From Thermoprotei archaeon (GTDB lineage Archaea > Thermoproteota > Thermoprotei > Thermofilales > B20-G17): DNA of 50,952 nt. A program made the position numbers and the translations under genes. Position 1 is the first letter of the stretch. Each line of letters begins with the position of its first letter. Below the pieces are notes generated by a model. It was not told the DNA's origin. It made no database searches and was given only the letters and a program-made list of their open reading frames with translations. Positions 32,686-37,510 of this stretch are shown in pieces. Where the stretch lies: positions 1 to 50,952 of the forward strand of contig QMRH01000005.1 of the NCBI GenBank assembly GCA_003650675.1, given 5' to 3'.

Positions 32686-33134
32686 CTAGAGACCTAAAAA
32701 TTCTTTAAGTGTATATGCTCCTCCTTCTCTACTCTTAACTGGAAGAACAAGTACTTTTCTTCCTTTAATGTGCCTGCCCCGGGACCGAACATGCGATGGG
32801 CGCTGGCAACCATTACATTTTCAGGAAATTCACGGTAGATTTCTTCCAGTCCTTTCTTGATCGTAGCTATGTCGAATACAAATGGATGCTTCTCCACGTT
32901 AACCAATGTTTTTACCCTTTCCAGAACCTTCGGTGCGTCGTTTAACGGTACAGCCACAGCTATAATATCAGATCTTTGAATAAGGTGTTTTAAACCAACA
33001 AGCTTTAACCGGCGGCTGCCGAAATTTACTCTTTTAGGGTATTTATTAAATGCAAATATAGAGTATCTGGCGTTTAGTGCATCTTTTGCTAGCATAATTC
33101 CCATTCTTCCTAATCCTATTATTCCGAGCTTAAT
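32686..33134 (-). pseudogene. Prephenate dehydrogenase (TyrA-like) remnant
   Basis: N-terminal Rossmann part of a TyrA-type dehydrogenase: KLGIIGLGRMGIMLAKDA (GxGxxG), DIIAVAVPLNDAPKVL and ASAHRMFGPGA. After this the frame shifts by one base near 32775-32780; the other frame continues correctly with IKGRKVLVLPVKSREGGAYT and ends at a TAG (32686). The protein is still about 100 residues short of a normal TyrA. The only in-frame start with a good GAGGTGG site would be ATT at 33132-33134. It overlaps the end of the upstream aminotransferase. Frameshift plus truncation makes it a pseudogene. Confidence 0.75.
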
Positions 33135-34003
33135 TCCAGAGCCACCTCATTTATTATGTTAGCTGCTTTAGCTATCTTGTTTATCGGACAGTTAACGAAA
33201 CCCGTATATATGTACCGTAATTTCCGAACGCTTTCCCAGGAAAAACAGATACACCATATTGTAACAGGGTTTTTGCGAATGTGAATCCATCCTGTTTAGT
33301 GTCTATAAAACAGTAAAATGAGCCTGTGGATTCACGTATGAAAAAAGTTTTTGTCGAGGTGTTTCACGAAGGTTTCCGCCCTTGCTCTGATGATGTTTCT
33401 GGTTTTCTCGGCGACTTCTTTTCTCAAATCTAGGGCCGTGACACCCGCTTTCTGGATGAACGCGGGCACACAAGTTATGGTGGCTCTAATGAATTCTACG
33501 ATCTTCTTTACTATCTCCCTAGGTGCTACGACGTATCTAAGTCTCAGAGATGGATACGCGAATGTCTTGGAGAAGCTATAGATTAAGGCGCATCTGTCAA
33601 AGCATACATCTATTATCGATATAGGTTTTTTATCGAAGTGGATATCAATATACGTCTCATCGGAAAGTATATAGCCGCTGGTTTTTTCACAGAGTTCTTT
33701 TACAAGTTTTTCTCCGCTACTACTCCTGTCGGGTTGTTCGGATAATTTAGTATCAGGGAGCCGTGAATTACATCTACCTTCGGCATCCATCCGTTAGTTT
33801 GGTTTCCACAACATTCAGTCTAGTGTTAGTTAATGAGGCGATCTGCTTATATCCAGACCAGTAAGGAGCTATTACAGTGATCTCCTCTAGATAATGCAGT
33901 AACGCCGCTATACCAAATTTTGCTCCGGGGACGACCACTGTTTCACTTACCTCTACGCCGTGGATATAAAAGCTCTGATTAGAATATCGCGAAGACATTA
34001 TCC
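33119..34003 (-). pseudogene. Class I/II aminotransferase remnant
   Basis: PLP-dependent aminotransferase broken by four frameshifts: near 33788 (GATGGATG run), in a five-T run at 33707-33711, in a six-A run at 33341-33346, and near 33185. The pieces read in order as GVEVSETVVVPGAKFGIAAL, WMPKVDVIHGSLILNYPNNP, ILSDETYIDIHFDKKP with the PLP-lysine segment IYSFSKTFAYPSLRLRY, STGSFYCFIDTKQDGF and AKAANIINEVALELSS. The N-terminal quarter is missing where the frame meets an unrelated membrane-protein fragment at about 34003. With tyrA downstream it was probably an aromatic amino acid aminotransferase. Confidence 0.8.
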
Positions 34004-34258: not shown

Positions 34259-35173
34259 TTAAAATAGCCTGAGTTTTCTCTCGAATTCCTTAAATTCCTT
34301 CTTTTTCTCGTATAGTGTAACTATTTCCTCTACGGAGACTACTCTAAAGAATTCTTCAATTTCATGAAAGCTGCCTTGAATCCATTGTTGAGCCTGTTTT
34401 ATCTTATCTTTGGTTGTTACAAGCACTGGAATGGCGTTCCATAAGTCGAAAGCATGCTTCAATTTCACTAAGTCTCGATATAAGTCGCCTCCTTTCAAAT
34501 TAACTTCAAATACAATGTAAGGGTTTCCACGAGCTATTCTCCTCCATACGACATCGACTCTGCTCTCTTCAAGTGGATATTCTTTCTCTGGGAACCTACC
34601 TTGCATTTCTCCAATTTTGAAAATTATGTCAACAAGATTGTCATGTGTAAGTCTGTCGACTGTAGGTAAGCTAGAGTTTCTGGTTTCAAACTCGATCCAG
34701 ATACGTCTAAATTTTTCATAAGGATACGTCACACCTCTTGTTTTTGTTTCACCGAAGATGAAGAGACTCCATCTATCTCCAGGAGTTCTAAACACCGGTA
34801 TGTAATGTGACAGTTCTTCCCTCGTAATAGGTTTAACCTTATCAAGCATATCCACGTCTAAGCCCCTTTTCTTGACCTTAGGAAAAATTGGTTTGAAAAT
34901 CACTCTAAAGGGGTAGAGACGGGCATCGGCATGCCAGTAAGAAACCCTGTCTTCCCCTCTAAAAGTTTTCACGATCTCAGCTAACACCCAAACTCCACGA
35001 ACGCCCTTGTGTTCAAAATATAGGAGAATTTTCATACCCGGCCTTAATATTCTCCATCTACGTTCATTAATTCCAAGGCGGTCTCTTGGAAACCCCCATA
35101 ACCCTTCTTCAGTAACACTCTTAAAGTGTGGATGACTACTGCTTCTCAGATTAAAAATAGCTCCTATCATCAC
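34259..35173 (-). CDS. EVE/PUA-like plus PD-(D/E)XK-like protein, candidate nuclease
   Basis: Residues 1-110 resemble an EVE/PUA-like fold (LWGFPRDRLG, LRPGMKILLYFEHKG, VWVLAEIV), domains that bind modified bases. Residues about 200-250 resemble a PD-(D/E)XK nuclease core: Asp207 in RVDVVW, then IVFEVNLKGGD with Glu223 and Asn225 or Lys227, then a helix and the strand IPVLVTT. An EVE-nuclease fusion would suit restriction of modified DNA. The PD-(D/E)XK lysine is displaced, so activity is uncertain. It is monocistronic in a disturbed accessory region with no methyltransferase nearby. ATG start at 35173. The identification is by eye and needs structural comparison. Confidence 0.55.
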   Translation of the reverse strand: MMIGAIFNLRSSSHPHFKSVTEEGLWGFPRDRLGINERRWRILRPGMKILLYFEHKGVRGVWVLAEIVKTFRGEDRVSYWHADARLYPFRVIFKPIFPKVKKRGLDVDMLDKVKPITREELSHYIPVFRTPGDRWSLFIFGETKTRGVTYPYEKFRRIWIEFETRNSSLPTVDRLTHDNLVDIIFKIGEMQGRFPEKEYPLEESRVDVVWRRIARGNPYIVFEVNLKGGDLYRDLVKLKHAFDLWNAIPVLVTTKDKIKQAQQWIQGSFHEIEEFFRVVSVEEIVTLYEKKKEFKEFERKLRLF

Positions 35174-35321
35174 TTGAATTTACAGAGTACGAGAAATATA
35201 AATTATTCAAAAAGGAATTAGCTAGTTTTAGGGAATTATTCAATATATAATACGCCACTTCACATATTTGTAAATAATTGTATGTTTAAAGCTACTTTTA
35301 TACTGTTTTTGAATAGGTTTT

Positions 35322-36433
35322 TCATGGGTTTTGGTTTGGGGAGTTTAGTAGGTGTTTAATGTATGCTGCTAGTTTATGGGGTGTTGTGTTGCCTATGTCT
35401 GCTACCAGGAAGTTTTTCCTGATGCTGGCTACTGTTTCGGCGTTTTCTTCTTGTTCGTAGTGTCCTTTGAGTGGTAGGAGTACGGCCGGGATTCCAAGCA
35501 CCATTAATTCTGTTATGGTGGATAATCCAGCTAGGGTGACTGCGCAATCTACACCCGCCATAACCCTGTAAAGCGTGTAGGGTTCTTCGAGTACCTCTAC
35601 GTCTGCCGATGTTTGGTCTTTAATGTTCACCCTAGGCCCTGGGGCAACAAGTATCTTTGTTTTTCTAAATTTTTTTCTAATCTCCTTTGCAACCTCTCCT
35701 GTAGCATCGAGAAGTTCTTTGCCAGCTCGGGTGCCTCCGATTGAGAAGAGAATTACCTTGGTTTCGTCGTCGACACCAAGTCTTCGCCTCGCCTCAACTC
35801 TATCTGGTAGCTCTTTTTCGGTGAAGCTTGGTATAGGCCCTATAAACGTGAATTGTCTATTAGCCCACTCCCGTACACTGCCCCCAGCTACCAGGTACCA
35901 TTTTTGGTCCGGTATAGCCTGCTTGAAGCCGACGTATAGTTTTTGTCGAATGCCTCTATCCTGGCTTTAAGGTACCTGTTTATGGCTAGTGCGGCGGGAA
36001 GGTTTAGGGGGTCTTTATAGAGATAGGAGATGAAGTCAGTTATGTACACTTTTGGTTTCGGGGCGTTTATTTTGTTGCTTGCAAGGAGTTCCCAGAACTC
36101 GTCGCCAACTATAATATCGTATTTCTCTAGGTCTATGTTTTCGAACAACGTTTCCACATTTTTTATTATCGAATATTCCCTTAATGCTAGAGACAGACTT
36201 ATTCTCAACCCGCCTTCACTATAGGAGGCTTCAGCTATAGGTGACAGACTTTTCAACCGCTCCGATACATCTAGTACTTTTTCTCCCCAGAACTTAAGGT
36301 AACTTAGTGCAGGTTCGGCGGCTACAAATTCCACGGTAGTGTTTCCATCTAGTTCCCGTAGCCGCCTCGATACGGCTTTCGCTCTTACAGCATGCCCTAA
36401 ACCCACTGAAGACACTTCATATAATATCCTCAA
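35322..36433 (-). pseudogene. MurG-like glycosyltransferase with one frameshift
   Basis: GT-B fold family 28-like glycosyltransferase. The N-terminal part begins ILYEVSSVGLGHAVRAKAVS with the G-x-G-H sugar-nucleotide loop. After EAFDK the frame changes at a five-T run (plus 35940-35944, A5 on the coding strand), and the other frame continues with LYVGFKQAIPDQKWYLVAGG, ILFSIGGTRAGKEL and AGLSTITELMVLGIPAVLLP to a stop at 35322. Adding one A to the run gives 371 codons with no other defect. This may be a real frameshift or a homopolymer error. Acceptor unknown. Confidence 0.75.
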
Positions 36434-36490: not shown

Positions 36491-37510
36491 TCATACATCG
36501 TATATCGACTGTATAACTGCATTCGGGTTTCTGGGGTCGGGGGTGACGGTTGCTTCTCTCATGTTTACGGGTATGGGTGGATGATATGAACGTACTATTC
36601 TGTCTAGATGTGTGAATGCTCCGCCAACTATCTTTATTTTTGCTTTTTCGACGGGACCCCGGAAGACCACCTCCCTCCAATGGCGGTCTGTAATCAACCA
36701 ATCTATTGTTAAATTATCTGGATTCACCCAGAGTTCTATTCTCTCTACATCCGGTACTTCGTCGAAAATGTTCTTGTTTAGCCAGAAAAACCATACTCTT
36801 ACAACCCAGTACCATCTCTTTCTACCTTCCAGATCCGATGCCTTTCCTATGAACAGGTCGTTCTTTATATTAATTCCAGAAACATGTCTTAAACCGCTGC
36901 CTAAGTCCCCGGAGACTACTGCTATCTCCCTTTCATCGAAGAATACGTGTACACGTGGAATAAACTGCCAGATAAAGGTCTTTATTTCCGGTACTCCATA
37001 ATGTTCTATAATCTTCTTAACCTCGCTGCGCATCCCGCCGTGCAACATAGGTTTGTATCTTGGACGATAAATGTATCCCTCGAGGTTGAATGGGTGGACG
37101 CTTATTGGGATACGGACTGAGCCGAATACTTCTCTCCTGTCGTGGATGTGGAGGGGGAGAGTTACTTCCATGCCTTGCCTGTAGGGGTAATAGAGAAAGA
37201 AATATGCAATAACGCTTTCGCCAGGTCTAATTTCATCTCTGTCACCCGGTAGCATCAACAGGTAGCCCTCCCTCCGCCCACCACCCCACATAACCTCAAG
37301 CCGATCTACCAATCCTCTTACTAGCCTTTGGTCGAGTAGGGTGCGTGGAGGTGAAATATAGATGCCCTCAAAACTTCTATCAGATTTATTTATTATCTTC
37401 AGCTTTAACGTTGAAACTCTATTCGATAAAATGTTGTTCGAACCGTCTTCTACACGTACATCAAAGTACTTGGAATCCACATCTATATCCTGTTTTCCCA
37501 TCGTCTCCAA
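36491..37510 (-). CDS. Uncharacterised protein
   Basis: A 339-residue protein, not recognised. ATG 37510 or ATG 37501 (giving MGKQDIDVDSKYF) are possible starts. The first half looks like a beta sandwich (STLKLKIINKSDRSFEGIYI ... VTLPLHIHDRREVFGSVRIP), then a Trp-rich second half (WYWVVRVWFFWLN, about 232-244). No signal peptide or membrane helix is seen. A TATA-like TAAATATTTAAA lies upstream on the minus strand. It is the last intact gene before the frameshifted glycosyltransferase, possibly co-transcribed with it. Confidence 0.6.
   Translation of the reverse strand: METMGKQDIDVDSKYFDVRVEDGSNNILSNRVSTLKLKIINKSDRSFEGIYISPPRTLLDQRLVRGLVDRLEVMWGGGRREGYLLMLPGDRDEIRPGESVIAYFFLYYPYRQGMEVTLPLHIHDRREVFGSVRIPISVHPFNLEGYIYRPRYKPMLHGGMRSEVKKIIEHYGVPEIKTFIWQFIPRVHVFFDEREIAVVSGDLGSGLRHVSGINIKNDLFIGKASDLEGRKRWYWVVRVWFFWLNKNIFDEVPDVERIELWVNPDNLTIDWLITDRHWREVVFRGPVEKAKIKIVGGAFTHLDRIVRSYHPPIPVNMREATVTPDPRNPNAVIQSIYDV

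Follow-up and report, generated by a model that had tools for sequence, protein, structure and literature searches.

The window considered here, a stretch of 50,952 nucleotides from a Thermoprotei archaeon, carries a minus-strand open reading frame that a first-pass annotation read as an EVE-like base reader fused to a PD-(D/E)XK-like nuclease and put forward as the best candidate here for an undescribed defense gene, directed against DNA with modified bases. Does this frame encode a protein and, if so, what would that protein recognize and cut? The frame itself is real, and its coordinates and strand had been assigned correctly. Full-length relatives without internal stops occur in the same class (G018, 49% identity; G040, 42% identity) and in other archaeal classes, at about 40 to 49% identity overall, so this is not a chance ORF; moreover, the plus strand across 34259-35173 is closed by many stops. 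The features of the locus are as follows.

34259..35173, minus strand: YTH-nuclease gene, 304 codons plus stop
35173, minus strand: GTG start codon, followed directly by ATG at 35170
34724..35170, minus strand: N-terminal YTH/EVE-like reader region, residues about 2-150 (AlphaFold2, Foldseek, profile alignment to Pho92 4rcm, conservation)
35096-35098, 34934-34936 and 34913-34915, minus strand: candidate cage residues W26, W80 and Y87 of the head
34262..34645, minus strand: predicted C-terminal PD-(D/E)XK-like nuclease domain, residues 177-304
34553-34555, 34505-34507, 34454-34459 and 34361-34366, minus strand: nuclease-domain residues D207, E223, K239-H240 and H270-E271
35195..35202, minus strand: TATA-like octamer TTTATATT, 24 nt upstream of the ATG, read by eye

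Comparison with relatives makes the ATG at 35170 the likelier start. The position of the octamer would fit a leaderless archaeal promoter, for which it is a candidate.

The gene had been said to stand alone, without a methyltransferase, in a region of decay and mobile-element traces, and its surroundings agree in part. Flanking it are genes for a GH31 glycosidase and an M1-type peptidase as well as broken metabolic genes, and no mobile-element gene came to notice among them; no methyltransferase gene is found in the neighborhood of the window copy and no defense genes around it, which places it outside any defense island. Decay is supported for three neighbors, all on the minus strand: a prephenate dehydrogenase fragment (32694-33104), an aminotransferase split over two frames (33332-33998) and a glycosyltransferase likewise split over two frames (35322-36433), each reflecting either true decay or an assembly error. 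Adjoining the broken glycosyltransferase is a 339-aa ORF without a Pfam family (36491-37510, minus strand).

A YTH-like head with a candidate aromatic cage

In an AlphaFold2 model of the whole window protein (mean pLDDT 88.6), the N-terminal half has a predicted EVE/YTH fold, nearer to YTH. A Foldseek search of the PDB gave 38 matches at E<=0.001, of which 35 are YTH domains, headed by 4rcm (Pho92 with m6A); the best YTH match has an E value of 3.7e-5, and TM scores normalized to the target are mostly 0.5-0.6. The other three are 2eve (EVE), the EVE-HNH restriction enzyme VcaM4I and the Leishmania protein 2ar1, which we take to be EVE-like. A sequence profile of the head, run against the PDB, likewise reached two yeast YTH domains, 4rcm (E=0.0014) and 4u8t (E=0.21), and 4rcm was found again in a repeat search. 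The EVE/PUA-like reader proposed at the outset is thus borne out by fold search and by the profile match to Pho92, and can be refined to a YTH-like one.

The m6A pocket of Pho92 is formed by W177, W231 and Y237 (PMC6112328). In the profile alignment, a sequence alignment in which the Pho92 chain residues were numbered by matching residue spacing, W26, W80 and Y87 of the window protein fall on exactly these three residues; the repeat profile alignment places Y87 less firmly. All three, together with H16, are invariant in the YTH-type sequences (12/12), and the three-residue hydrophobic cage of a YTH domain (W-W-W/Y/L) is present in the alignment. In Pfam scans, one of these 12 proteins matches the YTH family (PF04146), at E=0.027, and two of the 12 heads match EVE, at a best E of 0.025. 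Because the Pfam match is marginal, and is so for both EVE and YTH, we call the head YTH-like rather than YTH; the same EVE/YTH ambiguity in searches of archaeal YTH-like domains is described by Bell et al. 2020 (PMC7641849). From the aligned cage we infer that the window head may bind m6A. The protein MJECL36, which has a YTH-like fold and an aromatic cage and yet shows no detectable m6A binding (PMC6112328), is by analogy a warning against reading m6A recognition from a similar cage.

A lysine-less nuclease family with interchangeable heads

For the C-terminal half, a PD-(D/E)XK-like fold is predicted. Modeled alone (pLDDT 92.6), this domain has an alpha-beta-beta-beta-alpha-beta core, and its top fold matches are the PD-(D/E)XK nucleases Can2, EcoT38I, MspJI, Bax1 and Mus81. 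The match is moderate (best E of 0.0045 against the PDB, none below 0.001, TM about 0.5), and the C-terminal sequence profile found no known nuclease among PDB sequences, giving chance HSP90-type matches only. Topology and these moderate matches together bear out the nuclease-type domain of the first-pass annotation, which had also located a D207-x15-E223-V-N225 pattern and K227, all present at the positions given, and had singled out D207, E223 and K227 for conservation. The two acidic residues hold up over 43 nuclease domains (E223 in 43/43, D207 in 41/43), while K227 is found in no relative; it sits in an insertion of the window sequence alone, and was ruled out as the catalytic lysine. Indeed, the (D/E)xK lysine occurs in 0/43 members: position 225 is Q in 17, H in 14, V in five, S in four, E in two and N in one, and never K. 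Also conserved over the same 43 domains are K239 (39/43), H240 (42/43), D243, G267, F269, H270 and E271. Members of the PD-(D/E)XK superfamily vary at the motif lysine, and ExQ active sites, for example that of BglII, are active. Given this variation, and with the core topology and the conserved D and D/E in place but the canonical motif absent, we assign the domain to PD-(D/E)XK at the level of fold only; the family-wide absence of the lysine means that activity is not assured. From their conservation, we propose that the helix-borne K239/H240 could serve instead of the usual lysine.

Scans of the window protein with Pfam, NCBIfam and PADLOC gave no matches. A search of 61 related genomes returned close full-length matches in two others, plus a second copy in the window's genome; in ten further genomes the matches were weaker and fell mostly in the C-terminal domain. 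A scan of species-representative contigs added relatives in Calditenuaceae, Pelearchaeum, Bathyarchaeota and Methanodesulfokora, and one profile scan of viral contigs found no relative. The nuclease family is matched in 57/398 sampled genomes of the phylum; the full-length gene is patchily distributed, being present within the window's order in 2/27 sampled genomes, the window's own and G018. In the nuclease-domain tree the window protein clusters with Bathyarchaeota, G274 and G018, apart from G040 of the same class, a grouping that fits horizontal transfer.

Across this family, one nuclease is joined to YTH, EVE or winged-helix heads, plus others. The EVE heads are canonical (Pfam E down to 4e-14); winged-helix and other head labels were read from the sequences, with partial Pfam support. 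YTH-headed proteins form a single supported clade within the nuclease family (97/90).

Several further loci deserve record. The window's genome has a second family member with a winged-helix-like head (G000:C87:329-1384; L089/L014), beside a gene in which a staphylococcal-nuclease-like domain was recognized by eye. Spread over several contigs, genome G129 has ORFs with the EVE/YTH part alone and ORFs with the nuclease domain, several of each; among the former is an EVE-only ORF (L088:9675-10091) near HmaC/DUF499 and a DpdB-like protein. A YTH-nuclease copy in G241 (L080:9147-10596, on G241:C1) has its N-terminal part opposite to the rest and carries a frameshift. Invertible specificity was ruled out there: the frameshift and the lack of convincing inverted repeats at the breakpoints mark a rearranged, decayed copy.

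Defense islands and adenine methylases around the relatives

Whether homologues lie in defense islands was a question raised by the first-pass annotation, and they do. Family members adjoin HmaB and HmaC (L021), an HmaB-like methylase and a DEAD helicase (L019), HmaB/HmaC and an HEC-05/SspE-like protein (L092), and an Mrr_cat protein (L017); one lies on a contig with pAgo, a HEPN protein and a TmtA-like ATPase (L022). No obvious defense neighbor was seen at L018, L020 or L077. In G029, an EVE-like-headed member (L093) sits just upstream of a type I restriction-modification locus, with an HsdM match at G029:C3:303754-304695. DUF499, a Hma/BREX-related family, lies within 10 kb of a family match in 8/15 genomes holding both, where random placement predicts 0.28. 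Defense genes cluster generally, so this proximity shows residence in defense islands and not a specific partnership. A 2026 survey (PMC12839542) classes these DUF499 loci as BREX-related systems with N6-adenine methylases and points to the association with EVE that had been noted earlier.

Three YTH-type relatives have HmaB-type adenine methylase genes as neighbors (L019, L021 and L092), and DPPY motifs were seen at L019 and L021. At these loci, simple m6A restriction would therefore be self-destructive; they might instead be explained by recognition that depends on context, by a ligand other than m6A, or by cooperation with the neighboring systems. The last of these, in which the YTH-headed nuclease would work with the DUF499/DUF1156 BREX-related (Hma) system and read the methyl mark of that system's own adenine methylase, coupled to self-methylation, we regard as improbable. 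DNA methyltransferases are not excluded from carrier genomes, PF01555/PF02384 being present in carriers and non-carriers. The window's genome itself encodes an SPPY (m4C-like) enzyme and a DPPF enzyme; the contig that bears the DPPF gene is 3 kb long and may be a contaminant.

Proposed mechanism and comparison with known systems

We think it probable, with some reserve, that the window protein is a modification-dependent, type IV-like restriction nuclease that works alone, needs no NTP and reads m6A or a similar base. The YTH-like head would take up a modified base, flipped out of the DNA, in the W26/W80/Y87 cage; N6-methyladenine is the likeliest such base. The fused nuclease would then cut nearby, with D207 and E223 binding metal, probably aided by K239/H240 in place of the (D/E)xK lysine. 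Invading DNA with modified bases would probably be destroyed in this way. The combination of a modified-base reader with a nuclease, and with no cognate methyltransferase near the window copy, is that of type IV restriction; some relatives do have a methyltransferase nearby. No Pfam NTPase match is found in the 304-aa protein, which thus lacks the AAA+ GTPase domain of McrBC.

The aromatic cage is the reason for favoring m6A. The same mechanism with another base in the pocket (m4C, 5mC, 5hmC or a viral hypermodified base) seems unlikely: it would suit the 5mC/5hmC reading of restriction EVE domains (PMC7897488), the canonical EVE heads on some members of the nuclease family, the marginal Pfam matches to EVE and YTH alike and the adenine methylases beside some relatives, but it is opposed by the three-residue match to Pho92 and by the dominance of YTH domains in the fold search. 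RNA or single-stranded nucleic acid as the substrate, making the protein an m6A-RNA-guided or stress-response nuclease, is very improbable. Most YTH domains read RNA (PMC11037411), and the fold search with the nuclease domain ranks Can2, a CRISPR ancillary nuclease, first; against this, the archaeal restriction protein TgMcrB uses a YTH domain to bind DNA with 6mA, as described in PMC7641849 and PMC7897488, the same nuclease family bears winged-helix heads, and the neighbors of the relatives are DNA-defense genes.

We give least credence to a catalytically dead C-terminal domain, which would make the protein a reader or regulator of modified DNA. The family-wide lack of the (D/E)xK lysine is what such a domain might show, but E223 and D207 have been kept over great divergence, as have K239/H240 and H270/E271, and BglII-like ExQ sites are active. 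A restriction nuclease directed at m6A or a similar base thus remains the reading that we prefer. It has been proposed that the m6A readers of eukaryotes derive from prokaryotic YTH domains (PMC8868631). Few of these prokaryotic domains have been tested so far, and a YTH nuclease made of one chain about 300 residues long would be convenient for testing whether 6mA is read in DNA; it could also serve as a tool enzyme for mapping modified DNA.

How does the window protein compare with known systems? Thermococcus gammatolerans McrB also places an archaeal YTH-type reader, one that binds 6mA DNA, in a restriction protein; McrB is an NTP-driven translocase needing McrC, whereas the window protein has its own nuclease and no NTPase. 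VcaM4I shares the plan of an N-terminal PUA-superfamily reader and a C-terminal nuclease in about 300 residues, but its nuclease is HNH, where that of the window protein is PD-(D/E)XK-like, and it reads 5mC/5hmC. The YTH domain of yeast Pho92 (4rcm) has the fold and the aligned cage residues in common with the window head; Pho92 is an RNA reader without a nuclease. DpnI and HhiV4I, winged-helix fusion 6mA-dependent endonucleases (PMC11037411), follow a 6mA-directed type IV logic that the window protein would share, and winged-helix-headed members occur in its own nuclease family, one of them in its own genome. No YTH-PD(D/E)XK enzyme was tested in that study, whose authors name YTH fusions as future work, and we found no experimental test of such a YTH-nuclease in the open-licence literature.

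A close precedent is the work of Bell, Wolf, and Koonin 2020 (PMC7641849), which predicted EVE-PD(D/E)XK fusions and, in archaea, YTH-like-PD(D/E)XK fusions that resemble the window protein in architecture, in predicted role and in having archaeal YTH-like heads between EVE and YTH. "Undescribed" was thus too strong a word for this gene; that word and K227 are what the first-pass annotation loses, its reader head, nuclease fold, D207/E223 and islands having stood. The kind was already known, and the lysine-less nuclease family is a variant of it. Neither the lysine-less motif nor the swapping of heads was found described in the main text of that paper, whose examples may include this family. 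The nuclease with interchangeable heads is an unnamed family that Pfam, NCBIfam and PADLOC do not recognize. Within the literature searched, what is new is this distinct lysine-less nuclease family, together with the interchangeability of its heads, the grouping of YTH-headed members in one clade and the resemblance of the cage to that of Pho92.
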